This document shows positions 1-21,290 of a stretch of DNA of 24,722 bases, in pieces. The DNA comes from a virus. Location of the stretch: IMG/VR virus record IMGVR_UViG_3300019863_000005, positions 1-24,722 of that record, one strand, 5' to 3'. Position numbers and translations under genes: made by a program. The first letter of the stretch is position 1. Each line of letters starts with the position of its first letter. Under the pieces are notes generated by a model that was given only the letters and a program-made list of their open reading frames with translations, was not told the DNA's origin and did not search any database.

Positions 1-3000
1 AAACAGTAAGTTCTGTACAGTAGAGTAGTAAATTATTTTACTTATATTTGTTTTTCTATCGCCTCTACCATTTTTAAGATCACGTACTGATTTGTCTATT
101 ATTCTAGCATACTGAGATGGTGTATTTTGAAAAGCTAATATCAGTCTACCGAGAGGACCAGCTTGCTGCATTGATATACGGTCTGGTCTAGCAGACTGTT
201 GAGATTCTTCAGCTGTTTCTCTAAAATCTTCAAATGCTTGAGTCTCTGCTTCAGCTTGAGACATTCCTTGTTTCATTAAAGATTTTATCCTGTTTCTATA
301 GAACGTAGCACCACCAGACGCGATAGCAAAACTATCAGCTACCTGTGTAGGTGTAAAACCAAACTGTAATAGTTTACTTATAACAGCTCTTGGTCCACCT
401 TTTTTAGCCATGTCAGCAATGTCCGCTTCGTTTACATTCATACGTAAACCAGATCTTCTAGCTTTTAAGAAGTCAGAATTTATAAGTTTAGAAAAGTCTG
501 ACCAGTATTGTTTTTGATTTGCAAAAGCTTTAGCTGCTGCAAGCGGGTTGTTGTCTGTAAAGTTTAAAAAGTTTATAGATGATAAATTCTGTAATAACGC
601 TGATCTAGAGTTGAAGAACATAATAGCACCAATACTACCTTGTAACCAGTCTGTAAATCTACCTGTTAAACTATCATCAGAGAATCTTCTATTACGACCA
701 GTCTTCATACGGTCTAACATGTTCTCTAAAGCTATGCGATACTTCTTACCATACGCAGCTTCAAGCTTGTTCATGTTCTTTTCAGAGAATATAACATCAA
801 CATTGTTTTGCCACTGTGTTAAATACTTAGCCCTAACACCTTTGTTTATACTTTCTTGTATATCAGTTGTTATAGTACCAGCTGGCCAACCTTCTTTTGG
901 TTTAGCATAATCGCCTTTTTGTATAGCAATAACTTGATCAGCAAACACTTGCAAGTCTGCATTATCAGCAACATGCTCGCTTAAATCTTTTAGATCTTGT
1001 TTGCTAATACCAGGTACATCATAACCCAACTTGTTCCAAATGTAAACACGTACAGCTTGCTCGCGACTATACGGTTCGCCAGGTATTTTCTTACGTAGGT
1101 TTTTAGGTACAAAGCCTAATTGTTTTTTAAGAGCTCTGTAGTCTTGCATAACGCTAAGTCTAGCATTATCAATATCATTAACAGCTCTAGCATATGGTTT
1201 AATCAAGTGTTCTTTATACCAGGCCATCTGGGCATCGCCAAGTTTACCTTTGCTTAATGTTTCATACAACAAACCTACAAAGTCTTGAGCTGAGTATGGT
1301 ATACCTCTAAACACTCTACCAAGCGATGCTCCAGCTACTTCTGCTTTTACTTTCTTATATTCTTTTTCCGATGCAATGCCAGTAGTTTCTTCCAGTATAT
1401 CGTTAAATCCTTTGTCTAAAGCTTCTGAGTTACTATACTTAACATAAGCTTGTCTTACTTTTGACTTAACGTCTAGTACATTTAAAGCGTCACGAACAGC
1501 TTTAACGTTTTTGTATGCATCATCTGCAAAATAAAAATCATTATAACCTTCAGCTGCTTTACTTACAACCCAAGTCGCTTTTGCTTCTGGTGTACTGTTA
1601 CCTAAACCTACAATATTTTTAAGCGGTATATCTAAACCTATCGCTTTTAAAAACTGATGTATAGGTTCTGCTGCTGCCTGCGTTCTAGCCGTAAGTATAT
1701 ACACATTGTTATTACCAAACTTTCTATTACGAGCTACAGCTTTTTCAAACATAGGACCCTTACCACCTTCGGTAACTTTTTCAAACTCACTGAAGTCAAA
1801 CTCAGCGCCCTGCTGTAACAACTCTTCACCTTGCTTAGCAAACTCTTCAGCGTTTAAAACACCTTCTGTGCCATCAGGCATAGTGTATAATACGTTAGAT
1901 TTAGTTGTAGCTAATGTGTCATCAAAGTCCCAAACACTTATACCTTTACTTTCAGCATCAGCATTACGAGCGTTATCAATAGCTGTGTCTGACATTTTCA
2001 TTATAGCTATTGTTTTTTCAACTGGTGTACCAGGAACATTTTCTGCTACCTTAAGTTGTTGCTCTGGATCAAGTGCTTCGTAAGCTGTAATTCTACCTGA
2101 CTTAACAACATCTGAGTTAGCTTGCTCTGGAAACATTTGCCTAGCAACAATGTCAACCATACCAAATGAATCAAACGTACTTGGATCTTCTAGTCTTATA
2201 CCAGCAGGAAGTTTCTTGGTGTTTGAATAAGAGACTTTTACTTTTTGATCTAGCTTAGTATACTCATCTAAATACTTCTGCGCGTTTTGTGGTGTTCTTT
2301 TACCATCTATAACATCAGCTACTAATTGGTTTTGTTTGGCAACAGTGTCAGCGTTTATTTTAGACTTATCTAATTTAACACCTAACTCTTCAGCTAGTGA
2401 CTTACCTGTATCGTAGTTTATAATACTATTTAAATCAATACCAGCTTTTACAAAACGTATGGCAGGATTCTGTAGTATAGTATAACCTTGTGGTAGTGTT
2501 GCGTCTAGCTTAGCTAGATCTAATTTAAAGTCATCAGCTTTAGATAATCTAGTTTGATAGTAATTATCTTTAATAGCTTGTGTTATGATATCTGTAGTGC
2601 CATTTGATAAAGCAAATATAATCGATGCACCTATAACAGATGCTGGTGGGTTATGTTCTTCTCTAAATTTAGCACCAGTTCTTTGTTCTGATTTAGCACC
2701 TTTAGGTGCGTACTTTTCAGTCAAAGATCTATATTTAAATGGCGCAGCTATCTTTATTAATCCACTAGTTGCTTGGTAACCTTGAACTATAATCATAGCG
2801 GCTAAAGATTTTGGCATACCAGCTTTAACAGCTTTATCAAGTCGTTTAATAACGTTTTCTAAAACCTCCATGTTAACTTCGGCTTGAGCTATACCAGCTT
2901 CAGTATCAGCTTTTTCAACGCTAACTCTTATAGCTTTAGGTTGTTTTTTACCTTTTAAATTTACCTCTGCCGCTTCTAAAGCTTCAATGTATTTAGGATC

Positions 3001-6000
3001 ACTTTTACCGTAATACAATCTACCTCTTTGTGGTAAAAGATTAGTTACACCAACTGGCGACACAAAACTCTTACCCTTTTTACCTTTGTTTCTTCCAGTT
3101 TTTAGTATTGCTCTTTCACCTTTAACCCAATTACCATCAGTTAACTCATACCAGTAATCACCTTTTTTACCTTGTATGTTTTGAGATTTTAAATACTCAT
3201 CAAGTTTTTTAGCTAAAGGTACTAATTTTCCATTTTTACTTCTGCCAACTTGAACTCTAGTAGATCCACTAGAAGTAAACGCTCCAGCTAAAATGTCGTT
3301 AGGTGTTAATCCGTATTTCTTTATAGCTTCAAGAAGAGCTTCTTGTATTTCAGCTCTGTTTTCGTCGTTTACACTAGCGCTATCTAAACCTAAAAGATCC
3401 AACACTGTGTTAATGTTTCTAGCTACAGATACATCTTCTAACACACTAGTTTGTTTAGGTGTAAGACTAAACTTAGCACCAGCTCTAGCTCTTTTAGGTT
3501 TACTAGGTATAAGATCTTCAACCATACGATTTCTAATACTAGTATTAAATAAGCCCCGTATAGTCTGACCGACTCTGTCTCTGTAAATAGGTTTAACAGG
3601 TTTCTCTCTAACAAGATCTAAGTAATCTTTTAGTGTACCTGTTAGTTCACCGTCTGTGTACAAAGCGTTCATTACGTTGTTAGGTATAAACGTAGCTTTA
3701 CCAAAGTCATCTTTAGTTTTTGGTAGTCTAGCAAAGTCACTAGTAGCGTTGTCTATTAAGTATTGCTTTATACGTGTTAAACCTTCAGCATCTTTTTTAG
3801 AGTAGTTACGTTTTTTATCGTATATAGTTTCTGGGTTTACACCAAACATTTTACCGTATATCTCAGCAACCCCAGCTGGTACATTTTTAGTTTGACCAAA
3901 CCTTGTAACCTCCTGACCTTGAAACGCTTTATTAGTAGCATCAGATATTTGTTTTTCAGCTTCAGCTTTATTTACACCTAAATTAGCTAGTACTGTATCG
4001 CTAAATATGGTTGTTTCAGTAGGTTTTCTTGGACCTTTAGCTTCTTCTGTAATTTCTACTGCAGCTTCTTCAGCTACAACACCTCTAGCCTCTGTAACAT
4101 CCGCAGTAAACTCTTCACCTAAAACTCTATTAGAAGCTTCGATAGCTCTGGCTGGTAAAAACTTATTTATATACGCAGCTAATGGTACACCTGACTCAGG
4201 ATTATACTCATTAATTAGATCTAATATACCACGTTTACCTGTTTCTATTTCATCTGTAAGTAATTGTCTATCAAAGCCTGGAGCTTCAGCTCTACGTTGA
4301 ACTAGTCTAGATGTTATAGGTTTAAATTGCTCAATGATATCAAAAGCACCAGCTGCGCCTTGTTGATCATATATACTTTGAACAAGTTGCGAAGCTTGTT
4401 CTTGATTTGTTTCTGAAGCCGCCGCTCTAAGTTCTACGTCTTCAACTACTTCTGGTTTAGTTTCTTTTACTGGTCTACCTTCTTGTATTTGTTGTACGTC
4501 TGTAACGCTTAAAGTACCTTCTTTTAGTTTAGTACCTAATGTTGTAAGAAAATCTACAACACCTGTTTCACCCGTTAGATTAAAACTGGTTTGATTATTT
4601 GTAGCGTCTTTAATAGAATTGTTTATACCAAAACTTAAAAAGCTTAATAAACCTTTATTCTGTTCGGCCTCTAAATCTAATCTACCTGAAGAAACTTCTT
4701 CTAAGAAATTAGTTAAAACCTCGTCTGCATCTTGACCTTTAGTTCTACGCTTTATTCTTCTGTAAGAAGATGGGTTTGACTTTTCAAGGTGATTCATCAC
4801 TGTTTTTGCTAGGCCTTCAAAAGCTTCAGGATTAGAACTTAATCCTTCTGTAAATAACGTGTGACCAATCTCATGTATGTTAGTAGCTGTTTTACCATTT
4901 GCTATAGCATTTTCTTTTACTATAACTATATCATATGTAGTTTTACCTGTTTCGGTATTACGCAATGATAAGTTAATACCATTAGCAGAACCAGAGTTTA
5001 CGTTTTTAGTAAACTGCGCTAACTGCTTTTTAGCATCTTCTTCTGTAAGTCCACTATTTGGATCTGCAAGTCTAGCGTCTAGCATGTCACTAAAAGCATC
5101 TATAGCTTCAGCTTTAGTTTCAGCTACAAAAGAATTCTGATCAACACCAGCTTCACTCAAAGCTTCATTTGCTTTTAAACTTTGCTCTATATTCGCGTCA
5201 AACGTATCTATCTGCCATAGCTTTTCAGCTCGCTGCTTTAATTGTAAGTTTGTAAACTCTCCACCTTCTTGCTCTAATTCAACTTTGGCTCTATCAATAT
5301 ATTTATTACGCTCTGCTTTAGGTAGTAGATCTATGTTAATCTTATAATCTTTTCTAAAATTATCTCTAGCTAATTGCAATAGCTCGAATTTAGCGTATAA
5401 TGGCTGTAATGTTGTTTTTTTCTCTTTATTACTTAATTTATTACTTTCAAGTATTTGTTTAGCTTCAAGTCTTAACTGCTCTTGTTCTGAAGTTGCTCTT
5501 GCGTATAAATCAAAGCCTTCAGTAGTTAAATTAGATACAACTTTTTCTTCTACTTGTTTTATTATTTCATTATTAGCCTCGTTTAAATCTGCTACTTGCT
5601 GTTGTATTACTTTGTATTCCTTAGTTCTTTTGTCTAAAGTTAAACCTGTTTCGTTTAACTCAGCCATTTGTTCTAAGTTTTTTCTGTAACTTTCAAAACT
5701 ATTGTAATCAGATAGGTTTGATAAAACCATACCTTTAATAACAGGTACAGAGTTTAAACCACTACCTATAAACATACCGTCAAAAGCCCCTTGAGCTGCG
5801 TTGTCGAATATGCTTACGCCTTCTTTGCCTCTAAGTATATCAATACCATTCTGTACAACAATAGTACCACTTTCGGAAAGAGGCTCAACAACAGCTCCGT
5901 CAACACCAGCTCTTGTAAATTGTTTTCTAAAGTGATTTTTAAAACCTTCGTTTACTAATTTTCTTTTACCTATTAAATCAGCAGCGTTAAATCCTCTTTT

Positions 6001-7767
6001 TAAAGCAAAAAATGTAGGTGCAAAACCTAATCCAACTTCAGCCACAGTAAAACCAGTAGCTACTGCTGCTTTGTAATGTGTAGACAGTTCTGTACCTAGT
6101 AGTTCTTCTTCTTTGTCCAGCAATCTTCTTTGATCATCATATGAGCTAGCACCAATACCTATCATACCTGGATATAAGCCAGATGCCAGCATTGCAAACG
6201 TTGCACTTTGACCTACAGTTTGTTGCAAAGCGTATTCACCAAAGTTTTCTAAGCTATTAAAAGCGTCGTCAAAAGCAACATCATCTTTGTACTTTTTTCT
6301 GTACATGTCCTCTGCTTTTTCGACAATATCAGTAGTAAAGTCTGTAATAGCGTATGGGTTTACAGTAAAAGGACTACTAGCTCTTAAAACGTTTTCAACA
6401 ACATCCTCCTCTATACCAAACAATTTATTTAAAGCTATTTCATAAGCATCAGTAGCTACTCTAGTAACGCCACCTGCAAACTTGTAAGGTATAGAACCAA
6501 GTAAGTTTCTAGCGTTAGTACCCATTTTTTGTAGCGTACTGTAATTCTTTTTTAAGAACTCCAACTCAACTTCAGCTTCACTTAATTCTACAGGTATTTC
6601 GTCTATCTCTTTTTCTAAACCAGCTAATACACTACTTACCTCTTGATTTTCTTTAACTAAATCTTTATATAAATTAAAAGTTGCTTTTGGAACCTCTTTA
6701 CCTGTAGATAACACAACAGTTTCAGCATTTTCAACAGTGTCTTTATATTTATTTACAAGATTATTATATAAATCAACACTAGCTTGTGTAAACAGTTTTT
6801 TAGGATCGCCTAGTTCATTTATTCTTTGTAGATATACATCAGCATCTTTAGCGCTACGAAGTCCACTTAAATCAAACTTATAATCAGGATCATCAAATCT
6901 AGCTGATATGTTTATTAAGTTTGTACTATTAGGACTATCTTTGTATTTGTTAAATATAGTTTGATATTGATCAGTTGCGCTTGTAAGTTTCTTATCTAAC
7001 TTTATGTACTCATCAACTTTGTAGGGTACAAGCTTTTCTCTTTCTTCGTTTGATATTGAATCTAAATACTCTGTAGACTTTCTTTTTTTGGTGTCGTATC
7101 TGTATTTATTTTTTATATTTCTTTCAGCAAGCTTACGTATTTGCTCATTGTTAGGCTCTTCAACACCGTTTTCTATCAGCATGTTTTTAGCATCAAACAA
7201 CTCCTGCTCATACGGCTGAACTATTTCCATTAAGTTACCAGCTTCATCGTAATCAGGTCTGTATACTAAATCAAACTCTTCTACATACTCACCAGTAGTA
7301 GGGTTTTTCCAACGAGGATCAAACACAGTGTTTATTAAATTTTCATTTGTCTGTGGATCATAAGGTTGTAGTTCTCTACCTATACCTTTAGGCGTAAAAT
7401 CTATAGGGTTATTTAAAAAATCATTATCAACATCATTAAAAGCCATTGCATCTTCGTAAGTTTGCTGAGACTCCAAGTCTGTTGGTTGCTGACGTTTGTC
7501 TAGTTCGTTTTGCCTAGTTTGAGCTCTACCTTTACGCTTTGGTTGTGAGTCCGAAGAAATATCCACCGATTCTAATTCCGTACTCTCGGATGCTTGCTCC
7601 GGTTGCGGTGTTACAGTTGCATCCGTTTCCGCAACACCGTTTGTCTTTCCCTCTACAAAAGTAGCTTTACGTTCGTCTACTTTAGTCTGTATGTCAGCTG
7701 TAGATAAACCTTGAGATTCTAATTCATCAACTAAAGCTTTCAATTCTGCTATTTGCTCTTCGTTCAT
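1..7767 (-). CDS. Giant polyvalent virion (ejection) protein with zinc-peptidase and HAD phosphatase domains, C-terminus outside window
   Basis: The frame opens at an ATG at 7767, 11 bases after the preceding TAA, and I read 2589 codons to base 1 without a stop, so the C-terminus is missing. Visible order: a Ser/Glu/Gln-rich, probably disordered start (1-110); helical, charged sequence to about 450; glycine-rich hydrophobic segments near 517-545 and 567-588; long charged helices; a zinc-peptidase motif HEIGH at 965-969 with a possible third ligand E1016; a segment resembling sigma-70 region 2 (about 1165-1220); Ala/Glu linkers; an unassigned region around H1705; a HAD phosphatase domain at about 1940-2095 (DFDDT 1947-1951, T2026, K2063, ADD 2081-2083); and a helical C-terminal part. 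Size, domain mixture and position after two probable internal virion proteins suggest a protein packaged in the capsid and ejected with the DNA. The motifs are seen; the ejection role is inferred. Confidence 0.85.
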   Translation of the reverse strand, partial: MNEEQIAELKALVDELESQGLSTADIQTKVDERKATFVEGKTNGVAETDATVTPQPEQASESTELESVDISSDSQPKRKGRAQTRQNELDKRQQPTDLESQQTYEDAMAFNDVDNDFLNNPIDFTPKGIGRELQPYDPQTNENLINTVFDPRWKNPTTGEYVEEFDLVYRPDYDEAGNLMEIVQPYEQELFDAKNMLIENGVEEPNNEQIRKLAERNIKNKYRYDTKKRKSTEYLDSISNEEREKLVPYKVDEYIKLDKKLTSATDQYQTIFNKYKDSPNSTNLINISARFDDPDYKFDLSGLRSAKDADVYLQRINELGDPKKLFTQASVDLYNNLVNKYKDTVENAETVVLSTGKEVPKATFNLYKDLVKENQEVSSVLAGLEKEIDEIPVELSEAEVELEFLKKNYSTLQKMGTNARNLLGSIPYKFAGGVTRVATDAYEIALNKLFGIEEDVVENVLRASSPFTVNPYAITDFTTDIVEKAEDMYRKKYKDDVAFDDAFNSLENFGEYALQQTVGQSATFAMLASGLYPGMIGIGASSYDDQRRLLDKEEELLGTELSTHYKAAVATGFTVAEVGLGFAPTFFALKRGFNAADLIGKRKLVNEGFKNHFRKQFTRAGVDGAVVEPLSESGTIVVQNGIDILRGKEGVSIFDNAAQGAFDGMFIGSGLNSVPVIKGMVLSNLSDYNSFESYRKNLEQMAELNETGLTLDKRTKEYKVIQQQVADLNEANNEIIKQVEEKVVSNLTTEGFDLYARATSEQEQLRLEAKQILESNKLSNKEKKTTLQPLYAKFELLQLARDNFRKDYKINIDLLPKAERNKYIDRAKVELEQEGGEFTNLQLKQRAEKLWQIDTFDANIEQSLKANEALSEAGVDQNSFVAETKAEAIDAFSDMLDARLADPNSGLTEEDAKKQLAQFTKNVNSGSANGINLSLRNTETGKTTYDIVIVKENAIANGKTATNIHEIGHTLFTEGLSSNPEAFEGLAKTVMNHLEKSNPSSYRRIKRRTKGQDADEVLTNFLEEVSSGRLDLEAEQNKGLLSFLSFGINNSIKDATNNQTSFNLTGETGVVDFLTTLGTKLKEGTLSVTDVQQIQEGRPVKETKPEVVEDVELRAAASETNQEQASQLVQSIYDQQGAAGAFDIIEQFKPITSRLVQRRAEAPGFDRQLLTDEIETGKRGILDLINEYNPESGVPLAAYINKFLPARAIEASNRVLGEEFTADVTEARGVVAEEAAVEITEEAKGPRKPTETTIFSDTVLANLGVNKAEAEKQISDATNKAFQGQEVTRFGQTKNVPAGVAEIYGKMFGVNPETIYDKKRNYSKKDAEGLTRIKQYLIDNATSDFARLPKTKDDFGKATFIPNNVMNALYTDGELTGTLKDYLDLVREKPVKPIYRDRVGQTIRGLFNTSIRNRMVEDLIPSKPKRARAGAKFSLTPKQTSVLEDVSVARNINTVLDLLGLDSASVNDENRAEIQEALLEAIKKYGLTPNDILAGAFTSSGSTRVQVGRSKNGKLVPLAKKLDEYLKSQNIQGKKGDYWYELTDGNWVKGERAILKTGRNKGKKGKSFVSPVGVTNLLPQRGRLYYGKSDPKYIEALEAAEVNLKGKKQPKAIRVSVEKADTEAGIAQAEVNMEVLENVIKRLDKAVKAGMPKSLAAMIIVQGYQATSGLIKIAAPFKYRSLTEKYAPKGAKSEQRTGAKFREEHNPPASVIGASIIFALSNGTTDIITQAIKDNYYQTRLSKADDFKLDLAKLDATLPQGYTILQNPAIRFVKAGIDLNSIINYDTGKSLAEELGVKLDKSKINADTVAKQNQLVADVIDGKRTPQNAQKYLDEYTKLDQKVKVSYSNTKKLPAGIRLEDPSTFDSFGMVDIVARQMFPEQANSDVVKSGRITAYEALDPEQQLKVAENVPGTPVEKTIAIMKMSDTAIDNARNADAESKGISVWDFDDTLATTKSNVLYTMPDGTEGVLNAEEFAKQGEELLQQGAEFDFSEFEKVTEGGKGPMFEKAVARNRKFGNNNVYILTARTQAAAEPIHQFLKAIGLDIPLKNIVGLGNSTPEAKATWVVSKAAEGYNDFYFADDAYKNVKAVRDALNVLDVKSKVRQAYVKYSNSEALDKGFNDILEETTGIASEKEYKKVKAEVAGASLGRVFRGIPYSAQDFVGLLYETLSKGKLGDAQMAWYKEHLIKPYARAVNDIDNARLSVMQDYRALKKQLGFVPKNLRKKIPGEPYSREQAVRVYIWNKLGYDVPGISKQDLKDLSEHVADNADLQVFADQVIAIQKGDYAKPKEGWPAGTITTDIQESINKGVRAKYLTQWQNNVDVIFSEKNMNKLEAAYGKKYRIALENMLDRMKTGRNRRFSDDSLTGRFTDWLQGSIGAIMFFNSRSALLQNLSSINFLNFTDNNPLAAAKAFANQKQYWSDFSKLINSDFLKARRSGLRMNVNEADIADMAKKGGPRAVISKLLQFGFTPTQVADSFAIASGGATFYRNRIKSLMKQGMSQAEAETQAFEDFRETAEESQQSARPDRISMQQAGPLGRLILAFQNTPSQYARIIDKSVRDLKNGRGDRKTNISKIIYYSTVQNLLF

Positions 7768-7778
7768 ATTATTTTATT

Positions 7779-9371
7779 TTATTGACCTGGTACAGTTAGT
7801 AAATCAATTCCTTTGTAATCTTGCGGCTCTGCCTGTATGTCCTGTAGATAAGTATTATCACCTGTATCTAAAAACTTCAACAGGTCTCTAAGTTTATCTT
7901 CAGTTAAATTTTCAAATACATTTACAGATCTATCACCACCAGGTGTAGATTTTGTCAAAGTTCGACCTTGTCTACCACCAACTATAACTTCAGGTCCAGA
8001 AACTCTAAACCCGTAAGGTGATAACTGAACTTCGACCTCACTTAAGTTAAATAAAGGTTTTCCTTCTTCTACAGGTCCTGTGCCTTTAGCGTCTATTTTA
8101 ATTTTATCTATGTAAGAAACGTCTACAGGTTTATCTTTATCACTATCTGTTTTAGCTAATGTATAATTGCTATCATTACCATCACGTAAATCTGAATATG
8201 TAAAATCAGCTATAGCAGCTTCTAACAAAGCTACAGACTCAGGATTAAATGCTGTACCAGTGTCACCCATTGACATATCTAATTTATAACCACCAGTTTC
8301 ATCTTGTCTGTACTTAACGCCAAATTGTTTTTCTAAATTTTTAACAATAGCTGGATCTATATTAGCACCTTGACCAAGTGTAGTGTTCCACAAACTCATT
8401 GCTTGATGAGGATATTTAGCGTAACTTCTTGTTTGTGCGTTTATAAACACAGATGTCGTGCCTTCTATTTTACCTTGATTACGTGGTCTAAATTGATAAT
8501 TATACTTACCATCTTTAGTCGTGCCTTGTTCTACCCCAAGAACATATTCATCTGTATATTTTTTTGTTTTTTCATCTACAATACCAGACTCAATTAAAAA
8601 TTTATTTCTAGCGCTAACTAAATCATCTATTCTACCGCCATCAAAAGCAAACAAAACTTTAGGATCTGCCACTATGTAGTTGTTATCTATTTCACCTTTT
8701 TCAAAAGCATTTGTTATTTGATCACTGGTATACATAGTTTTAAGTTTCCAGTTATCATTTTCATCAAAAAACCATTGCTCTCTAGGGTTTCTAGTAGTAC
8801 CTGTTCTTGCTGGCATAGCTAATTGATATTGTTTAGATAAACCTTCGTTCATGTTAACTGTAGACACGCCATTAGGCATATTAACATTAGCGTAACCATC
8901 TATGTAATCAGTTGTAAAACCAGCGTCAGCTTGCTTGCCTGACTCTACAACTATACCAAGTTCATTTATTTTACCGTCCCAAAAAGCATATTCTTTAGCA
9001 AATGCAGCCTGCTCTTGTTTACTTCTAGCAGACTTCATGCCCATGTAAGCGTTTGCTTTTTTATCAATAGCAAACAAGCCTACTTGATTTAAACTAGGGT
9101 TATTTATACCAACCTTTTCCATGTTGTCACTAAATTCATCGTAGCTATCTAAAACAAATTTAGCATTTTCATCTAAGTATTTTTGAGTTTGCTGTACGGC
9201 TAGTGAATTGTTTTTAGACCGCTTAGCAATTTGCTGAGCAGTTATACGACCCATTGTTTCAATAGCTTTAGCCCATGGATTGTTAGAAGGAGTGTCTACC
9301 ACAGTAGTAGGTCTTTCATAAGCACCTCCTCTGCTGCCGTAATTTCTTGAAAATTGTGGTAACTTTGCCAT
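7779..9371 (-). CDS. Probable internal virion / cargo protein (530 residues)
   Basis: I recognise no enzyme domain. The N-terminus is basic and low in complexity (RNYGSRGGAYERP near residues 9-21). A helical, Gln/Lys-rich stretch follows to about residue 160, including a pattern of the type AKEYAFWDGKINELG. The rest is mixed alpha/beta with many Gly, Asp and Asn, and ends in QDYKGIDLLTVPGQ. No signal peptide or strong membrane segment is visible. It starts 8 bases after the stop of the Ala/Gln-rich 242-residue gene and ends 11 bases before the giant protein, so the three are almost certainly co-expressed. In T7-like and P22-like phages this position holds ejection proteins (T7 gp15 type), which is the basis of the call. 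A structural tail protein is possible. The leader is A-rich with no Shine-Dalgarno. Confidence 0.6.
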   Translation of the reverse strand: MAKLPQFSRNYGSRGGAYERPTTVVDTPSNNPWAKAIETMGRITAQQIAKRSKNNSLAVQQTQKYLDENAKFVLDSYDEFSDNMEKVGINNPSLNQVGLFAIDKKANAYMGMKSARSKQEQAAFAKEYAFWDGKINELGIVVESGKQADAGFTTDYIDGYANVNMPNGVSTVNMNEGLSKQYQLAMPARTGTTRNPREQWFFDENDNWKLKTMYTSDQITNAFEKGEIDNNYIVADPKVLFAFDGGRIDDLVSARNKFLIESGIVDEKTKKYTDEYVLGVEQGTTKDGKYNYQFRPRNQGKIEGTTSVFINAQTRSYAKYPHQAMSLWNTTLGQGANIDPAIVKNLEKQFGVKYRQDETGGYKLDMSMGDTGTAFNPESVALLEAAIADFTYSDLRDGNDSNYTLAKTDSDKDKPVDVSYIDKIKIDAKGTGPVEEGKPLFNLSEVEVQLSPYGFRVSGPEVIVGGRQGRTLTKSTPGGDRSVNVFENLTEDKLRDLLKFLDTGDNTYLQDIQAEPQDYKGIDLLTVPGQ

Positions 9372-9379
9372 ACTTTTTT

Positions 9380-10108
9380 TTAGTTATTCATTGCGCCTAT
9401 ACCAGCACTAGCTATATTTCCAACAGCCCCAATACCAGCTCCTATAACTTGAGCTTTTGATTGTCTTGCCGCCGTTTCTTGTTGAGCCGCACCTGTTATT
9501 TGAGCTTGCTTTCTGTTTAATTGTTCTGTTTCTCTGCGTTCTGTTTCACCATATACAAACTCTTTACCAAGCACATCAGCTTGTTGCATACGTTGTGCCT
9601 CTGTCATTTGAGCGTTTTGAACTCTCTCCGCTTCAGACATTTGCTTATCTTGCAAACGCTCTTCACCTCTTGCTATAAGTTCTTGATTTTTAGCTTCTTG
9701 AGATTCTAAACTAGCAGCAATACCTCTTTTACTTTGCAATGCAGCTTGAGCAAGTGCAGTAGCACCACCAGCACTGGCTCCAGTAGAAGCTAATAAGTCC
9801 AATGTATTAGCTAAAGCAATATCTGCTTCTTCAGCTTGAAACTCAGCTGCCTGCGTAGCAACACCTACATTTTCAAATGGATTTGAAAGCATACCTGAGT
9901 TATCGACTATCATACCTTCCAAAGAAACAACATCCTCGTAAGGATTTATAATTTCTTGTCTTGAGTTTTCAAGTTCTTCAAGCTCGTCCATTAAACGGTT
10001 TTTATCACTTCTAGCTCTACGCTCTGCTTTTGCTTGTTGACCCGCAGCTACTGCAGTACCAATACCAGTAACAGCTGCACCAACAACCATCGCTGTTGCT
10101 ATTCCCAT
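9380..10108 (-). CDS. Probable small internal virion / ejection protein, Ala/Gln/Glu-rich
   Basis: This 242-residue protein has a glycine/alanine-rich hydrophobic segment at each end: residues 1-22 (GIATAMVVGAAVTGIG) and about 222-240 (VIGAGIGAVGNIASAGIGAM). The middle is a highly charged, Ala/Gln/Glu-rich helix that probably forms a coiled coil (about 25-60 and 100-220). A short near-repeat, AERVQNAQMTEAQRMQQ, lies around 160-178. This build, with amphipathic or membrane-seeking ends and a helical middle, is typical of small podovirus ejection proteins such as T7 gp14 and P22 gp7, and the gene stands first in a series of three of rising size. The sequence features are seen directly; the ejection role is inferred from composition and order. 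It starts 2 bases after the acetyltransferase-like gene ends. A coiled-coil tail component is the main alternative. Confidence 0.6.
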   Translation of the reverse strand: MGIATAMVVGAAVTGIGTAVAAGQQAKAERRARSDKNRLMDELEELENSRQEIINPYEDVVSLEGMIVDNSGMLSNPFENVGVATQAAEFQAEEADIALANTLDLLASTGASAGGATALAQAALQSKRGIAASLESQEAKNQELIARGEERLQDKQMSEAERVQNAQMTEAQRMQQADVLGKEFVYGETERRETEQLNRKQAQITGAAQQETAARQSKAQVIGAGIGAVGNIASAGIGAMNN

Positions 10109-10110
10109 AA

Positions 10111-10515
10111 TTAATTTATTTTTTTCATTAACTCGTGTGAAGGCTTTGGATCTTCTAACCAGCCTTTATTTCTCATAGATTTACGTATACCATTGCTTTT
10201 ACCTATAAACAACATATACTTAAATCCCATATCTATTGCTATTTTTTCTGCGTCATCAATTAGTTTGTCTATAATATGAGACCTATCATTTTTATAATTA
10301 GGATCTGATATAATAAACTCTAACCAACAACCTTTTGAATTTGTTTTAAATATAAACCCAGCTATAACTGGTATATTATTCTCTTCAATAATTATACCAC
10401 CTGTACCATTATCTGGTAAAGCGTCATTATTTGGTATAGGCCATTTATGACCTTCCCACCAAGAGCAAAGCATGCCCCAGTCTTTTTCTGTAATGTTACG
10501 AGTTTTTAATTCCAT
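10111..10515 (-). CDS. GNAT-family N-acetyltransferase-like protein
   Basis: A 134-residue protein with the length and pattern of a minimal GNAT fold. It has a beta1-alpha1 start (residues 1-20, ELKTRNITEKDWGMLCSWW), central strands (IPVIAGFIF, about 48-56; CWLEFIISDP, 63-72), and then a helix with DKLIDDAEKIAIDMGFKYMLFIG (83-105). The usual acetyl-CoA pyrophosphate loop (Q/RxxGxG/A) is not well formed: its place holds YKNDRSHII at about 74-82, so activity is uncertain. The substrate is unknown. The gene sits between a tail-type gene (5 bases upstream) and the cargo genes (2 bases downstream), so it is co-expressed late. It could modify a virion or host protein, or be a structural relative that has lost activity. 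Confidence 0.65.
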   Translation of the reverse strand: MELKTRNITEKDWGMLCSWWEGHKWPIPNNDALPDNGTGGIIIEENNIPVIAGFIFKTNSKGCWLEFIISDPNYKNDRSHIIDKLIDDAEKIAIDMGFKYMLFIGKSNGIRKSMRNKGWLEDPKPSHELMKKIN

Positions 10516-10520
10516 TTAAT

Positions 10521-11957
10521 TTAATATGATGATTCTACATATTCTGACGACACTGCAAATAATTCTCTTGGTACACCACCTATTCCTGAAGCTGTGTTGT
10601 CTTTTGTGCTAGCATCTGTTTGTATAGTTACAGTAGAATAATAACCTTTTACACCTGATATACTGTTACCAAACACTACCTCACCCTGTGTTGGCTGACT
10701 GTCATTTACTATATTAGCAAAATACTTACCTTCCTTTTTATAAAATCCAGAATAATATACTATACCTCCTTCTAAATAACCACCCTCATCGTAACTACGT
10801 ATAAACGCCGCTGTGTCGTTTTGTTCGAAAGATCTTGATGCATTAAAAGCTGTAACTTCCCAACCAGTTGAGCCTTCATAGTTCACTGTTTTAAAAACTT
10901 TAGAAGTGCTAGCGCTTGGATTAAATATAAACGTTATATTTGATGGTGAATATTGATTATAAAAATTACCTCTATTATCGTTGGATTCATTTTGAAAATT
11001 ATGTTGGTATATCATACCACCGTTTATAGTGTAAAATTTATTATCAAGACTAAAAGCTTGATCTGGATCGTAAGTAAATCTACTAGGCCAACCTAAAACT
11101 TGTTCATCAAATGATAACGTTTGGTAGTCGTTATTTGGTTTTTGCAAGCTAACTACATACTGTTTAGCGTATATATCCCAACCACCTACAATAACTCCTT
11201 TTTGTGTAGGTGTATCTAAATTACCAAACTGATCTCTAAAATAATCAACCATACCGTAATTAGATATTTCAGTTATACCGTCTTGTGATAATCTAAGAAC
11301 AGCATTTCGATCTCTATCTGTAAAGTATTTTCTATAACCATATACAGCAAAGCTTCTAGGATCTTTACTTATACCATAGTTGCCAGCGTAAGGTACTATT
11401 TGACCTATTACTAAATTAAGTTGACTAACTGGTGTACCTCCACCTTCAGCTGTATATATTGCGTCTTTATCTATTAACGCTCTATTAACTTTATTTTCTT
11501 GAAATATAATTAAGTTTGTATCTTCAGCGTATAATTTTTGTACTGAACCTTGTGCTGGATCTAAAGATTTAGTTATATCTTCACCTACGCTAAATACGTT
11601 AGTGTCATTAACACCTGTTCTAGAATTAAATATACCAGAGTATATTAGTGATGATGTTCTAAAACTCGCGTTTGGCTCATCATCTACTAAATAAGCTTTT
11701 ACACCATAACCCATTTCAGTGTTATTAAAACCACCTTCTATTCGTGATTCTTCTATAACCCAGCTTTTACTGACATTAACTTCTTCATTGTCTGGATTAG
11801 CAACCTTTGTATATATAGGAAAAGCTCCAGGTATATCTGTAGGCACGCCCATAGATCCGTTCCACAAAGCTTCTGGTTTTAGTGGTGTAGCTCTATTTAT
11901 TACTGTTTTTCTAAGTAAAAACGAATTGTAAAATTTAACTTCTATTATTGCTGCCAT
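10521..11957 (-). CDS. Tail nozzle/muzzle-type structural protein (478 residues)
   Basis: A beta-rich, aromatic and Asn/Gly-rich protein with no visible membrane segment or signal peptide. The middle part (about residues 140-260) reads as repeated strand-turn-strand units, e.g. EDTNLIIFQENKVNRALI, GNYGISKDPRSFAVYGYRKYF and NAVLRLSQDGITEIS. Such units suggest beta-propeller blades, as in short-tail nozzle proteins (T7 gp12 / P22 gp10 type), and I associate this pattern with crAss-like and marine Bacteroidota podoviruses. It starts 9 bases after the 1547-residue protein ends. The two may be partners, or the separated halves of one nozzle. The C-terminal 60 residues contain further Gly-rich strands. 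Family placement is by pattern recognition and is moderately secure; the exact position in the tail is inferred. Confidence 0.6.
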   Translation of the reverse strand: MAAIIEVKFYNSFLLRKTVINRATPLKPEALWNGSMGVPTDIPGAFPIYTKVANPDNEEVNVSKSWVIEESRIEGGFNNTEMGYGVKAYLVDDEPNASFRTSSLIYSGIFNSRTGVNDTNVFSVGEDITKSLDPAQGSVQKLYAEDTNLIIFQENKVNRALIDKDAIYTAEGGGTPVSQLNLVIGQIVPYAGNYGISKDPRSFAVYGYRKYFTDRDRNAVLRLSQDGITEISNYGMVDYFRDQFGNLDTPTQKGVIVGGWDIYAKQYVVSLQKPNNDYQTLSFDEQVLGWPSRFTYDPDQAFSLDNKFYTINGGMIYQHNFQNESNDNRGNFYNQYSPSNITFIFNPSASTSKVFKTVNYEGSTGWEVTAFNASRSFEQNDTAAFIRSYDEGGYLEGGIVYYSGFYKKEGKYFANIVNDSQPTQGEVVFGNSISGVKGYYSTVTIQTDASTKDNTASGIGGVPRELFAVSSEYVESSY

Positions 11958-11966
11958 GTTATATTT

Positions 11967-14900
11967 TTATTGTGCAACTCGATCAGGTGGGCCATCTAAA
12001 TCTGGTAAATCACCTGAATCATCACCACCTGGACCTGTTCCAGTTCCACCGCCATCGTCACCACTACTGCTACTACTAGATGTTTTGGTGTCAAGACATG
12101 GGCCGAGTATTCTACCTTCTGAAGCTTTAAGTGGACTTGGATATTCTAACAAGTAAGTTCCGTCTCTTGTTTGTTCTAGGTTATTTCCATCAGCTCTACG
12201 TATTCTAGTGTAAAAAGGATTTGCTATTGTACCTGTTTTAGGAACGTTGGGTGATGATGAAAATTTACCTGTTAAGTTTGAGTTATCCCAAAGATCAAAA
12301 ATAGCATCATTAACAGTTCCTAAACCTGATGTTGTATTCGGTGTAAATAAATATCTAGCAGATGGTGATGCTGAATAAAACACAACTCCAGTAGGTTGAA
12401 AAGCCCCAGTTCCACATGTGGCTGCTCCCTGAGCCCAAGCAGTTATTTCATAAGCATATATATTTGATTGCTGCCCAGTTGTAATAAAACCTCTTAATTT
12501 GTTATCTCCCAACGGAACATTAGCAAAATCACCAATTCTATATTGTACATTTGTTGATAACTCTGGCGTGTCGCTACATATAGCACTACCTGTTCTGTTT
12601 GGTGGTGTGCCTATAGCATTAAAAGCTTTATAAGAATTATAAACATTTCCACTAGCTATCCTATATTCTCCAGTGTTATTTAAAACAAATATTCTAGAAC
12701 AAGGTTCTGTTAAAAATCCACCAATTATAGGACCACTTGGTCCCATTTGCGCAGCAAGATCAACAATGCTTTTGTATATTTGATTTTCATAAACCCCACC
12801 ATCATTTTCTGCGTACATACCAGACAATGTAGTGTTACCTGTGGCATCTCTTAAAAACCTATATTCATTGTCAAAAATACATGGGTTTCCAAATACATCT
12901 GTAGCTATGCTCCAAGTAGAAGAACCTATGCTTCTATATTCAATAGCAGCATAAGTACCGCCAGATTCATTTTCTTCAGTCATTTGAATTGTAAAGTGTA
13001 CATAAAAAGTACTAGATGGTGCTGTAATTGGTTTTTCTTGGTTTGCTCTAGCGTAGTATCTAGCGTCATTAGCATCACCAGCTGTACAAACTAAACCAGA
13101 TACTTCATTGTTATACGTTAATCCACTTGTAGTATAACCTTGTTGGAAACTTGATGGTATAACAGCTGTACTATTTAAATTAGTTAAACTGTCTACAAAA
13201 AAGTCTACACCGCCATTCGCCATTTCTAAAACCCTTCCTACGTTTTGAAAATGATCAGCAATATTTGGTATACCTATTGTTGTGGTAATTGTTTCGGTTG
13301 AAGACATTCCACCTTCATCAGTAACAGTTACATCATAAGTAATATAACCAAAATTAGGTTCAGAAATAACAGCACCTTTTATAGGTTGAACAACCTTTAC
13401 TTCTCCGTTATTTGGTGTTTGAGAGAATGTTTGTATACTAAGACCGTAGTTAGTTGTGTTAGGTACAGGTGGTTGTTGACCAGCTGGCACTACTACATTA
13501 GATATAGTAAATGTTAAATTTTTACTTTCTTGAGCAGGATCAGCAGAACCATTGAAATTCTGAAATAAATTTATTATGTCAGCAGATGTGTAACTAATAG
13601 GGAGTTGTGGTGGTACAATTATAGAAGGCGCTACGTTTTGTAGTTCAGTAACAACACCTACGTCTGGAAAAAGTGTATTCGTAACACCTCCAACAGTAAC
13701 TTCAAATTCAAAATTATATCTATTTCTAGCAGCTAAAGCAGGTCCTTCGTAATAAAGATACTCATTATTTTCTAATCTTAATTTAAAACCACCAGCACCA
13801 TCATCTATTAATTTAAATTTATCTGAACCAGGATTTAAAGGATCATTTAAAAAATTACCAGCATCATCAGTAACAATCATTTCAACGTTACTAGGCGCTA
13901 CTTGAGAACCAGAAGCATCTACAAAATAAAACGTATTGCTTCCATTATTTATAAGTTCTGTAGGATTAGCACTACCGTCAGGCATAGCGTCTTCAAAAGC
14001 TTCAAAGTCAAAATCTACAATACCTACAGCACCTGTTGTGCCTTCGTTTATAGCTGTATTTAAATCACTAATTAATCCAGCGCTACTAGTTTCCCAGAAT
14101 ATCTCAAGTCTAGATACTGTAGGAGCTGTTTCTAGTACAGCTAAAGTATTTATTGGAGAATATTCACTGGTTTGACTGTTTATTGTATTAAAAACACCAA
14201 ATTGAAAATCTGGATCTTGAGACGTCACGAACTCTGCTATAAAAGGATTTGAATCAGATTTGTAAAAAGAACTAAATGGATTTTTTATATCTGTTATAGG
14301 TAACACAGTATTGTTGGTGTCTTCAAACTGCAACACATCAAATAAATCAAATAAATCTTCAATAGCATTTGTTGTAAACACTGTTCTACCAGGACTACCA
14401 AAGTTTGCTTGTGAAAACTGTTCGTTAGCGGTAGCAAATTCACTGGATGTAGTAACATTATTCATTACTCTACCAAAAAGTTTTACTGAACTTCTAAAAG
14501 TTTTATCTTGTGGCCCAACCTGAGTTAAATCTCTAGGTACTTTATTTATGTTGTCGTTTATTAAACTTATAAAAGAAGTATCTGGTTCTTTTGTATTTGA
14601 AGCATCTGGCGGGCTGGTGGTAGTATAATCAAAAGGAACATCTTTCATTGCTCCGGCGGAGTATACATTATAATAATCTTGTTCAACTTGCTTTACAACT
14701 ATCTTATAACTATACCAACCAAGAGGATTGTAGTTAGAACTAGTTGGATCACCATTGTATAACCCAGGTTTTCCTGTTTGACTATTTGGGTCATTAGGTA
14801 TAGCGTCATTAAATTGTACTTTTAAAGAAGAACCTAACCAATCCCAAGCTTCCGATCCAGTATTATCATCTCTGTATGGTAAAAAAGCTGTATCAGCACC

Positions 14901-16610
14901 AAACCCAGTTGCTGAAGCAGTAGACGATGTGTTGTTAGATAATATCACTGTTGACTGTCTGCCAAACTTATCAGACAAAACAATACCAACTTGATAGTTT
15001 CTGTTTTCTTTTACATTACTAGTTGGATATTCTACAGCACCTAAATTTGAATTTCCTGCCGTTATTTCTGTTTTTTCATTAGCTAAAACTTGGTAGTTTA
15101 TACCTTCTGGTGGTGTGTGTTTATCTTGAAAGTTACCATATATAATTCTATTACTAGCCACTTCTTGCGAAAAAGCTTTAACAGGTACTTTATCATAAAC
15201 TCTAGTTAACTCAGATTCAGGTAAAGTTTTGTAAGGTTTTGTAGATAAATAGCTAAAAGTAAAGTATTTAGAATTTTGAGATACAGTTGGATCTGCTATC
15301 CTTGAAACTGGTATTGTTTCTACAACTTGAACAGCTAAAGCGTCTGATTCTTTATATAGTATATCTAACTCAGTTATTTTAAAATCATCTTGTAAAGTAC
15401 CACCAACACTAGGTAATGGTATGTGTAAATCTATTTTATTAACTTTATTTTCAGCAAAATCTACTACAGTACTAGAATAAGTTTGTTTTTCATCGTTTTT
15501 CTTTTGCCCTAAGTCAATAATAAAATAACCATCTTGCTTTGGTATAAAACAAGCTTGAGTAAATGGCGCTAGTATAGAATACTCGCCATCATCAAATTTA
15601 AATCTATAACTAAATCTTACAAATTTATCTTCTAAAAATTGTGGATCTCCAGCAAAGTTTGATTCTCTATATGGATTATCTGTAACATCATCGGGTAGTT
15701 TTTCAGATACAACATCGTACATTGATGTTTCTATTTTAAAAAAAACAAGAACATCACCAGCGCTTACTGTGACTGGTTTATTAAATTGAAGAGTAGCTGG
15801 ATCTGTAACTGGATCACCAGGTATTACTTTAGTAAGGACAGCCCTATCTAAAATTTCAAAATTAGTTGGATTTAGTGTTTGTATAGCAACAGCCCCATTT
15901 AAGTTAATATCTAAATCAGCAGGCGCTGGTCCATTTAGTAAAACTTTATTTTCATTAATAACACTATTTGCTACAGTAACTTCGTATGGAGTTCCAGTGT
16001 TTGGATTGATAACTAAAGCACGGGTGTCAGGTTCACCGTTTAATTCTGGTATAGAATATACTTCTATAGGCTCGTAAGGGTTGTATTTGGCTACAGATAT
16101 TTGATCTTCTGTCTCGTAATATGAACTATTATTTATAGCTTTTTCTATATTTATTTTTCTAGGTTGGTTTCTGTTGTCAGTAAAAAACAAAAGATCTTCT
16201 AAAACATTAACACCAATTATAGGAAAGTCTTCATGGAAATTCAAAAAAGGACCACTTACTAAATCAAATTTTTGATTAGTACTACTATCCCACATAGCGA
16301 CTATGTTTGAACCATTTTGATTATAACCTGTACTAGTTCCAGAAAAGTTATTAGTGAAAAAAGAATAAACTCTACCAGAGTTTTGATCTGCAAAATAACC
16401 AATAGATACTAAATTTTGACCACCTACAAAAGCATCAAAGTCTGCAACTAAAACATTACCTTGCACGTTTTCTAACGCACCAACGTCTTCGCTTTCTGAC
16501 TTTATAACTTGAACGTTAACAGCGTCGCGATATTCTCCACTTGGTACAAGTCTAGAGTCTAAGTCTTTATTCATCTTAGACTTTAGAAAAGCATTTTTAA
16601 CTTCTGCCAT
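11967..16610 (-). CDS. Large tail stabilisation/nozzle-type protein with Ig-like insert and C-terminal cysteine-containing region
   Basis: A 1547-residue protein. The start (FLKSKMNKDLDSRLVPSGEYRDAVN, residues 9-33) is a pattern I associate with P22 gp10-like stabilisation/nozzle proteins of podoviruses. It is followed by propeller-like units such as GRVYSFFTNN and DLLFFTDNRNQPRKINIEKA. About 200-960 is beta-rich with many Asn, Thr and Ser. About 990-1117 looks like a cadherin/Ig-like domain, containing YITYDVTVTDEGGMSST. About 1160-1520 is a different, beta-rich region with six cysteines. The last 40 residues are low complexity (a Ser run, then Gly/Asp/Pro). The protein is much longer than P22 gp10 (472 residues), so the extra C-terminal domains may be surface-exposed or receptor-contacting (inference). 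It starts 6 bases after the connector gene. It could instead be an adhesin fused to a nozzle. Confidence 0.65.
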   Translation of the reverse strand: MAEVKNAFLKSKMNKDLDSRLVPSGEYRDAVNVQVIKSESEDVGALENVQGNVLVADFDAFVGGQNLVSIGYFADQNSGRVYSFFTNNFSGTSTGYNQNGSNIVAMWDSSTNQKFDLVSGPFLNFHEDFPIIGVNVLEDLLFFTDNRNQPRKINIEKAINNSSYYETEDQISVAKYNPYEPIEVYSIPELNGEPDTRALVINPNTGTPYEVTVANSVINENKVLLNGPAPADLDINLNGAVAIQTLNPTNFEILDRAVLTKVIPGDPVTDPATLQFNKPVTVSAGDVLVFFKIETSMYDVVSEKLPDDVTDNPYRESNFAGDPQFLEDKFVRFSYRFKFDDGEYSILAPFTQACFIPKQDGYFIIDLGQKKNDEKQTYSSTVVDFAENKVNKIDLHIPLPSVGGTLQDDFKITELDILYKESDALAVQVVETIPVSRIADPTVSQNSKYFTFSYLSTKPYKTLPESELTRVYDKVPVKAFSQEVASNRIIYGNFQDKHTPPEGINYQVLANEKTEITAGNSNLGAVEYPTSNVKENRNYQVGIVLSDKFGRQSTVILSNNTSSTASATGFGADTAFLPYRDDNTGSEAWDWLGSSLKVQFNDAIPNDPNSQTGKPGLYNGDPTSSNYNPLGWYSYKIVVKQVEQDYYNVYSAGAMKDVPFDYTTTSPPDASNTKEPDTSFISLINDNINKVPRDLTQVGPQDKTFRSSVKLFGRVMNNVTTSSEFATANEQFSQANFGSPGRTVFTTNAIEDLFDLFDVLQFEDTNNTVLPITDIKNPFSSFYKSDSNPFIAEFVTSQDPDFQFGVFNTINSQTSEYSPINTLAVLETAPTVSRLEIFWETSSAGLISDLNTAINEGTTGAVGIVDFDFEAFEDAMPDGSANPTELINNGSNTFYFVDASGSQVAPSNVEMIVTDDAGNFLNDPLNPGSDKFKLIDDGAGGFKLRLENNEYLYYEGPALAARNRYNFEFEVTVGGVTNTLFPDVGVVTELQNVAPSIIVPPQLPISYTSADIINLFQNFNGSADPAQESKNLTFTISNVVVPAGQQPPVPNTTNYGLSIQTFSQTPNNGEVKVVQPIKGAVISEPNFGYITYDVTVTDEGGMSSTETITTTIGIPNIADHFQNVGRVLEMANGGVDFFVDSLTNLNSTAVIPSSFQQGYTTSGLTYNNEVSGLVCTAGDANDARYYARANQEKPITAPSSTFYVHFTIQMTEENESGGTYAAIEYRSIGSSTWSIATDVFGNPCIFDNEYRFLRDATGNTTLSGMYAENDGGVYENQIYKSIVDLAAQMGPSGPIIGGFLTEPCSRIFVLNNTGEYRIASGNVYNSYKAFNAIGTPPNRTGSAICSDTPELSTNVQYRIGDFANVPLGDNKLRGFITTGQQSNIYAYEITAWAQGAATCGTGAFQPTGVVFYSASPSARYLFTPNTTSGLGTVNDAIFDLWDNSNLTGKFSSSPNVPKTGTIANPFYTRIRRADGNNLEQTRDGTYLLEYPSPLKASEGRILGPCLDTKTSSSSSSGDDGGGTGTGPGGDDSGDLPDLDGPPDRVAQ

Positions 16611-19826: not shown

Positions 19827-21290
19827 TTACTTAGTAAATAATACAAAGTTGTTAGCACCTTGTACACAAAGACATCTTTCAGATAGGAAGTTTACTTCCA
19901 TCGCATCAAGATCACTTGTGAAAGCACCACCAACAGATCCAGTCAACCAAGACTTCATACGACGATCGTCAGTTTGTGACGCTCTGTATCGTACATGCAA
20001 GAATGGACGACGGATGTTAGTACCAAGAATTTGATCGTATACAGTTGATGTACCTGCAGGAATTAATACTCCATCAATAGCGCTAACGCCATAGCTTGGA
20101 GGAATTAATCCGTCTTCAATAGCACCTCTTGTAGAAGCATCGTTTAGATATTTCCAGTCAGTTTTGTAGAAGTCATAAGAACCTCTGCGGAAACCGCTGA
20201 ATCCTAAATTCAATGCCATATCTTCTGAATTTTCGAAGATACCATAAGAAGTACCACCAGAGTAAGCAGCATTCACCGCAGCTAGCATATCATCAAAACC
20301 TAGTGAAGTTTCGCGATTCAAGAAAAGCATGTTTTCTTCAATAGCTCCCTGTGTATCTAAGTTTCTTAGAATATTATCAAACTCAGTTAGTTGCGCAGCA
20401 GCAGCGTTAAAGCCAGACTCTACGTTACCACGAGATTGAATAGCAGCAAATAAACCTTCTGTACCTTTGAAACCAGCCGCAAACGCAGAACCAGCACCTA
20501 GACTAGTGTCAGCTTTTTCGCCTTCTACTACCGCCATTTCTAGATAATCTTCGAAACGTAGGCGAGTTTCAGACTCAGCTTTTAGATACCATAGATATCC
20601 AGATGTTCCGTCTTCTGTAGCAACTTCAACCCAACCGATCTGAGCAGTGTCAGAACCAGAAACTACATATTTGTTTCTGATGATAATTGGTGAGTTAGAA
20701 AACTGAGTAAACGCAGGGTCTACACTTACATAACCATCAGCAACAGTTGCTGAAGTATTGTTTGGTGTAGATGAACCTTTTGCATATTCAGATCCATAAA
20801 CGAAAATCTTAACACCTGTAGTAGCAAGAGCTGCAGTAGTTGTAGCATCGTAAGGAGCTACAGTTAAAGCACCAGTTGTTAGGTTTGAAGCAGTTACAAC
20901 ACCTGTAAGCTCGTTACCAGCTCCATCCAAAGCAACGATAGTTGAGTTTGGAGAAACTACGTTTTTAACGTCAGCTGCAACAGGAATAGTAATTGTGTTA
21001 ACTTGGTCGTTTGCACAGTCTTCATAAGCGATGTGTAAACGATTTTGCTCAGACCAAATGACTTGATCAGAAGTCATAGGCATTTCAGCACCTACCATAC
21101 GCAAGAATCCAGAAAGCGTACGGTTGCCGTATCGCTCTACTTCTTGCTCATAAATCTCAGGTAGATACTGCTGTGCAAATGTATCAGAATCGCCAGGGTT
21201 AGAACCTCCATTAAAAGACAGGAAGTTCGTGTCTAGCAATTGTTGTTGTTGACTTGGAACAATAGTTCCAAATAAAGGACTTATAGCCAT
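19827..21290 (-). CDS. Major capsid protein (HK97-fold type expected)
   Basis: A 487-residue protein in the portal-scaffold-capsid order. The N-terminus (PLFGTIVPSQQQQLLDTNF) leads into a helical arm region (FAQQYLPEIYEQEVERYGNRTLSGFLRM, about 38-65). About 100-175 is a beta-rich Thr/Ala/Gly segment (TIVALDGAGNELTGVVTASN) that could be an insertion domain or extended loop. A helix-rich middle follows (RLRFEDYLEMAVVEGEKA; AQLTEFDNILRNLDTQGAI). The end, DLDAMEVNFLSERCLCVQGANNFVLF, is a strand-helix pattern typical of capsid C-termini in this phage type. Codon use differs from the neighbours (CGT, ATC/ATT, TTC and AAC preferred over AGA, ATA, TTT and AAT), as expected for the most highly made virion protein. 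A stable UUCG hairpin follows. The HK97 fold is expected for tailed phages, not shown here. Confidence 0.8.
   Translation of the reverse strand: MAISPLFGTIVPSQQQQLLDTNFLSFNGGSNPGDSDTFAQQYLPEIYEQEVERYGNRTLSGFLRMVGAEMPMTSDQVIWSEQNRLHIAYEDCANDQVNTITIPVAADVKNVVSPNSTIVALDGAGNELTGVVTASNLTTGALTVAPYDATTTAALATTGVKIFVYGSEYAKGSSTPNNTSATVADGYVSVDPAFTQFSNSPIIIRNKYVVSGSDTAQIGWVEVATEDGTSGYLWYLKAESETRLRFEDYLEMAVVEGEKADTSLGAGSAFAAGFKGTEGLFAAIQSRGNVESGFNAAAAQLTEFDNILRNLDTQGAIEENMLFLNRETSLGFDDMLAAVNAAYSGGTSYGIFENSEDMALNLGFSGFRRGSYDFYKTDWKYLNDASTRGAIEDGLIPPSYGVSAIDGVLIPAGTSTVYDQILGTNIRRPFLHVRYRASQTDDRRMKSWLTGSVGGAFTSDLDAMEVNFLSERCLCVQGANNFVLFTK

Follow-up and report, generated by a model that had tools for sequence, protein, structure and literature searches.

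A giant candidate ejection protein carrying a putative sigma-70 region-2-like module in uncultivated podoviruses

The window analysed here is the whole of the 24,722-base IMG/VR fragment IMGVR_UViG_3300019863_000005. Its left end is occupied by one very long minus-strand frame (Table 1) that contains no stop between its ATG and base 1, a run of 2,589 codons whose probability in random sequence is about 4e-84 (window GC content 34.9%). The frame is thus open to the window edge, as the initial annotation had described it. Because the record is a fragment, the giant protein is cut at the contig end. The extent of the part lying left of base 1 could be estimated from the nearest complete relative, L002, whose closed protein of 2,783 aa is 90% identical to the window giant; by this comparison about 195 C-terminal residues fall outside the window, and the full-length protein is predicted to have roughly 2,790 aa. 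A stop or frameshift, which would have spoken against a single giant protein, occurs in only one of the fully covered relatives used: the giant of L005 is broken into three frames, possibly through a metagenome assembly error, and the frame is intact in all the others.

By sequence, the source of the window appears to be an uncultivated podovirus related to flavobacterial phages. Genes to the right of the giant match PHROG head-and-packaging families, and the cluster is syntenic with the structural cluster of flavobacterial podoviruses, namely Cellulophaga phi38:1 (Pervagoviridae), Flavobacterium elemo phages, Maribacter phage Panino and the environmental phage ctfjg026. The giant is the last gene of this portal-capsid-structural series and lies among late virion genes. 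The terminal gene of the cluster is very long in phi38:1 (1,691 aa), Panino (1,829 aa) and ctfjg026 (3,859 aa) as well, and the phi38:1 counterpart carries the annotation 'structural protein' only. An order that runs from the portal through the major capsid protein to a small, a medium and a giant protein is common to the window and phage N4, with parallel series from the portal to gp51 and the virion RNA polymerase (vRNAP) in N4 and from gp91 to gp101 in phi38:1. Searches with phmmer found no N4 homologues of the window neighbours, so the N4 parallel rests on gene order and not on shared sequence. Contigs of the family occur in metagenome-assembled genomes labelled Flavobacteriaceae, Cryomorphaceae, Saprospiraceae and Sphingobacteriales, among other bins, and these labels make a Bacteroidota host likely.

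Three further observations concern these clusters. PHROG 14478 corresponds to a single protein in related phages, but within window positions 10521-16610 its match is divided between the start of the 1,547-aa ORF and, for its later part, a separate 478-aa ORF, so that this gene looks split or rearranged in the window. Positions 10111-10515 encode a 134-aa protein of PHROG 17252. The ctfjg026 gene in the corresponding position carries the label of an acetyltransferase subunit, so the ejection cluster may include an enzyme of the GNAT type. In Panino (L044, positions 37261-40024), the 1,829-aa terminal gene is immediately followed by a stretch of ~15 tRNA genes plus a tmRNA.

Table 1. Features of the window, with residue numbers of the giant protein and the basis of each assignment.
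Feature	Window position	Strand	Basis or remark
Giant ORF	1..7767	-	ATG 7767 to base 1, 2,589 codons; 3' end at contig edge
N-terminal block, residues 23-109	7441..7701	-	present in 25 of 112 complete giants
Zincin-type metallopeptidase module, residues 937-1102	4462..4959	-	hhalign to ctfjg026 and N4 vRNAP zincins
HExxH motif, residues 965-969	4861..4875	-	H965-E966-H969
Putative third zinc ligand E1016	4720..4722	-	invariant in alignments A1 (19 sequences) and A6 (70 sequences)
Sigma-70 region-2-like module, residues 1138-1225	4093..4356	-	profile-profile alignment and predicted fold
Module midA, residues 1257-1440	3448..3999	-	confidently folded model; no detectable sigma region 4
Module midB, residues 1640-1800	2368..2850	-	between midA and HAD in the module order
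HAD-superfamily phosphatase module, residues 1935-2085	1513..1965	-	PHROG 415 and motifs
HAD motif I DFDDT, residues 1947-1951	1915..1929	-	D1947/D1949/T1951
HAD motif II T2026	1690..1692	-	alignment of relatives
HAD motif III K2063	1579..1581	-	alignment of relatives
HAD motif IV D2082-D2083	1519..1524	-	alignment of relatives
Conserved all-helical C-terminal domain, residues 2095-2589 (runs past window)	1..1485	-	family alignment and model
530-aa cysteine-free protein	7779..9371	-	position of phi38:1 gp100 and N4 gp51; probable ejection partner
242-aa cysteine-free protein, glycine-rich hydrophobic ends	9380..10108	-	position of phi38:1 gp99; probable membrane-active ejection partner
1,547-aa virion structural protein, gp97-like	11967..16610	-	PHROG 14478
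Virion structural protein, probable major capsid	19827..21290	-	PHROG 13704; position of phi38:1 gp93
Probable portal protein, 5' end at contig edge	22529..24721	-	position by synteny

Among sequenced phages, tblastn with the giant returned no direct homologue and only a weak HAD-region match in LR756500, and Pfam searches, taken up to E values of 10, gave nothing above cut-off for the window protein. In scans of IMG/VR, the whole protein retrieved 42 loci, while the sigma-like segment matched 193 stretches and the C-terminal domain at least 537. The 112 complete giants range from 1,431 to 3,181 aa, and nearly all of them share a fixed module order of zincin, sigma2, midA, midB, HAD and C-terminus. 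Their first ~900 residues are highly variable and the helical C-terminus is the most widely shared part; the zincin is present in 102, the HAD module, which is optional within the family, in 78, and a canonical sigma2 module in 65. A single polypeptide therefore combines at least two unrelated functional domains, counting the zincin, the sigma2-like segment, the HAD module and the conserved C-terminus. Searched domain by domain with profiles, the zincin, the HAD module and the sigma-like segment proposed in the initial annotation were each supported. Its description of a multi-enzyme protein stands as far as a multi-domain giant with zincin and HAD motifs is concerned; the sigma-like part has no place among the enzymes, and some giants do without the HAD module.

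The zinc-peptidase motif and the full HAD motif set that had been read from the window alone are conserved features of the family. H965, E966, H969 and the distal E1016 are invariant in all 19 giants of alignment A1, and HExxH is kept in 100 of the 102 zincin-positive complete giants. By hhalign the module matches the zincin of the ctfjg026 giant (P 9e-5) and, more weakly, that of N4 vRNAP (P 0.0023). All four HAD motifs (DxDxT, T, K and DD) are invariant in 13 aligned relatives, and the module matches PHROG 415, polynucleotide kinase, with an E value of 3e-6, which suggests a phosphatase acting on nucleic-acid ends. The zincin and HAD enzyme domains may be inactive.

Between the zincin and midA lies a segment that profile and predicted fold assign to a sigma-70 region-2-like module. 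The profile of alignment A3 had a sigma factor as its best, weak match among PDB sequences (E 0.15). When a region-2 profile built from E. coli RpoD, RpoS, RpoH and FliA together with phage sigmas was compared by hhalign with sliding windows of the 70-sequence alignment A6, it was matched only by windows over residues 1130-1210 (P 5.6e-6 for the mixed profile; ~1.5e-4 for the E. coli sigmas alone), and windows not reaching these residues gave P values no better than 0.037. Structure prediction, proposed at the outset as a check, also returned a region-2-like fold for residues 1138-1225: the AlphaFold model of residues 890-1490 has a pLDDT of ~90-96 across most of the module, and all 50 of the 50 VIA-align matches listed are sigma factors, the best being E. 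coli sigma70 with a Z score of 9.0 and an rmsd of 2.8 over 90 residues, although Z below ~13 can represent a common arrangement for helical bundles. Foldseek matches of the model were likewise mostly sigma factors, singly non-significant (best E ~1).

The likeness to sigma-70 region 2 extends over about 70-90 residues and includes the RpoD positions D403, G408, G411 and Y430, which are kept in the module of the giants. The module departs from sigma-70 in lying inside a virion-type giant and in replacing RpoD Q406, E407 and W433 by E, T and K. In RpoD, Q406 and E407 serve core binding and W433 serves promoter melting; with these positions changed, promoter melting may be lost. The giants have no match to Pfam Sigma70_r2 (PF04542), and sliding-window hhalign over residues 890-1489 detected no region 4, the helix-turn-helix that recognizes the -35 element; the same approach rejected midA as a candidate for it. 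Lacking region 4, the giant does not appear to be a full sigma factor. That the module was copied from the sigma gene of these phages is weakly supported: it matches their sigmas alone with P 0.0064 and the E. coli sigmas better.

Of 43 giants without a canonical sigma2, 28 have a distant version of it at the corresponding place (P<0.01), a level that none of 150 control segments reached. Purifying selection on the module is strong, tighter than on most of the remaining protein and the tightest among the modules measured: against distant relatives its dN is 0.06-0.21 at dS 0.5-2.0, versus a dN of 0.8-1.3 for the adjoining zincin, and in most such comparisons it is more constrained than the C-terminus. 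Recent spread by recombination is not favoured as the cause of this conservation, the synonymous divergence there being itself ~0.5-2.0. Constraint of this strength is most naturally explained by a conserved partner, for which host RNA polymerase is the obvious candidate.

A search of the BFVD with the model of the C-terminal domain gave 44 matches at E<=1e-3, many of them annotated PolyVal, MuF or LPD; the matches to PolyVal/LPD-annotated proteins (E ~1e-6 to 1e-3) are at the level of fold, with no Pfam PolyVal or LPD model matched. Against the PDB only weak rows were obtained, two of which are ejectosome proteins (8vb2, Z 3.8; 7k5c, Z 3.1). No homology of the C-terminus was detected to phi38:1 gp101 or the Panino protein (both by hhalign), the ctfjg026 giant or N4 vRNAP. 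The glycine-rich hydrophobic segments reported in the initial annotation are present, for example at residues 522-540, 569-587, 664-682 and 1711-1729, but they are not of membrane-helix strength, because the 19-residue Kyte-Doolittle average peaks at 1.34, under the normal transmembrane threshold.

Cysteine is almost absent from the giants. In 111 giants we counted 18 cysteines among 287,045 residues, and 102 of the proteins have none, versus cysteine contents of 0.57% in other ORFs of the same loci of at least 300 aa and 0.40% in those of at least 1,000 aa; at the rate of the other long ORFs, ~1,137 would be expected. Both neighbours (530 aa and 242 aa) are also cysteine-free, as are phi38:1 gp101 and the 1,829-aa Panino protein. 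Cysteine is likewise missing from N4 vRNAP (3,500 aa), gp51 and gp52 and from T7 gp15 (747 aa) and gp16 (1,318 aa); N4 gp53 and the T7 capsid, portal, tail and fibre proteins contain some. The N4 capsid protein gp56 and gp57 are also without cysteine, so its absence is not a specific sign for short proteins. Missing cysteines in N4-like vRNAPs have been tied to passage through the tail and periplasm (PMC3715699, PMC3915230). These counts support the use of cysteine scarcity as an easily read sequence marker for phage proteins that are ejected. From cysteine depletion and gene order, the giant is probably an ejection protein delivered with the DNA. Its proposed place as the last of an ejection-type gene series is strengthened by the gene order of N4 and phi38:1, by the scarcity of cysteine and by the polyvalent-like C-terminal fold.

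Known virion proteins resemble the giant in different respects. Like N4 gp50, the virion RNA polymerase, it is very large, cysteine-free, equipped with a zincin and placed last in a portal-to-giant cluster beside a cysteine-free partner (gp51 in N4). In contrast to gp50, it has no polymerase domain and carries the sigma2-like module instead, and the zincin is the only detectable sequence homology between the two. Cellulophaga phi38:1 gp101 and the Panino protein likewise close a syntenic structural cluster and lack cysteine, but are shorter and show no sequence homology to it by hhalign. T7 gp14, gp15 and gp16 likewise form a row of small, medium and large ejected proteins, the latter two cysteine-free. 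The window giant has sigma2 and HAD modules, whereas gp16 carries an endolysin/transglycosylase domain.

The start of early transcription in phages without their own polymerase is usually credited to host sigma factors. All 11 larger relatives of the window (52-71 kb; L208-L218, equivalent to G001-G011) encode a separate sigma-70 of ~250 aa, one of them cut short. These separate sigmas begin MKKYN or MKSYN, and nine pass the Pfam cut-off. No T7/N4-type RNA polymerase was found in the 11 records, which may be incomplete, and the RNA_pol model had no match in 36 giants; as a control, the model finds T7 RNAP and N4 RNAP1 and scores N4 vRNAP weakly. With a separate sigma and no such polymerase, these phages probably depend on the polymerase of the host, which their own sigma would redirect as soon as it has been produced. 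A virion-borne sigma2-like piece would cover the period before that.

As an overall explanation, we consider it reasonably probable that the giant, which sits where N4 has its vRNAP, is a polyvalent ejection protein that on entry brings in a protease, a phosphatase and a sigma2-like module binding RNA polymerase. The protein would be packaged in the capsid, retained by its conserved helical C-terminal domain, and would exit via the tail along with the DNA and its two neighbours of 530 and 242 aa. Once inside, the zincin would target either the giant or a host factor, and the HAD domain, to judge from its motifs, would strip phosphates from nucleic-acid ends or host-defence nucleotides. The sigma2-like module would bind the clamp of the host RNA polymerase core and bring or turn the polymerase to the incoming DNA ahead of all phage gene expression, a role as host-polymerase binder suggested by homology, extreme constraint and gene position. 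The overall effect would be like that of the N4 virion RNA polymerase, but with the host enzyme borrowed instead of an own one brought. Capture of host RNA polymerase on the incoming genome would make the module a virion-borne promoter-recognition piece in widespread marine phages, the mirror image of the N4 strategy; this part of the proposal is tentative, possible but doubtful. If true, it would mean that the phage seizes the host transcription machinery on arrival. A virion-delivered sigma2-like module in hundreds of marine viral contigs would then offer a testable alternative to early transcription by host sigma alone.

The presence of region 2 without region 4, and the change of melting-aligned positions such as W433 where the fold and Y430 are kept, would also suit a decoy or inhibitor that fills the sigma site and stops host transcription at entry with no initiation at phage promoters, particularly as the phages' own full sigma could take over later. 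This evidence, however, fits blocking and recruiting alike, and with few copies per virion it would be hard to titrate all host polymerase; we regard the decoy as somewhat unlikely. Resemblance to region 2 could also reflect a chance helical arrangement in a segment that binds a conserved phage partner, given that the Foldseek E values are singly non-significant, that Pfam Sigma70_r2 has no match and that helical bundles reach middling Z scores by chance. Independent sequence-profile evidence is nonetheless confined to the same residues and every VIA-align match listed belongs to one family; we regard such a coincidence as improbable.

Other alternatives concern the protein as a whole. Were the giant an internal structural or ejectosome part only, its zincin, sigma2-like and HAD segments would be assembly, scaffolding or DNA-binding modules with no cytoplasmic role. 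The broad sharing of the helical C-terminus, the weak ejectosome rows for its model and the plain structural annotation in phi38:1 are in keeping with such a part; it is unlikely, though, in view of the complete catalytic motif sets retained in the HAD and zincin modules, the swappable, cargo-like middle modules and a constraint on sigma2 that mostly exceeds that on the C-terminus. Autoprocessing by the zincin, before or after packaging, would set the sigma2, HAD and remaining modules free to work independently of one another. The zincin, found in most complete giants, lies directly upstream of the sigma2 slot, and autoprocessing has been proposed for polyvalent proteins, P1 DdrB being cleaved before packaging; yet the zincin-bearing N4 vRNAP is packaged unprocessed (PMC5512222). 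We consider such cleavage a realistic possibility, short of an even chance, and it is compatible with delivery of the modules by a polyvalent ejection protein.

The giant has those features of phage polyvalent proteins (Iyer et al. 2017, PMC5512222) that could be tested: several unrelated domains, very large size, a zincin and a location among virion genes. Its C-terminal model resembles PolyVal-, MuF- or LPD-annotated proteins at the level of fold. The giant differs from the proteins of that catalogue in its sigma2-like and HAD modules and in having no Pfam PolyVal/LPD match. The words sigma, phosphatase and haloacid are absent from the text of the founding catalogue (PMC5512222), and a literature search, with subscription journals outside its coverage, found no paper describing a polyvalent protein combined with a sigma factor. 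If confirmed, the sigma and HAD modules would be an addition to the polyvalent repertoire. Smaller variations in module content were also seen. Endonuclease-like Pfam hints in the middle segment stay below significance. L134 has, besides the usual HAD module, an extra HAD-model match without DxDxT in its N-terminal half. One of the 19 giants in alignment A1 contains a LysM domain (E 1e-8), which may be cargo that binds the cell wall.
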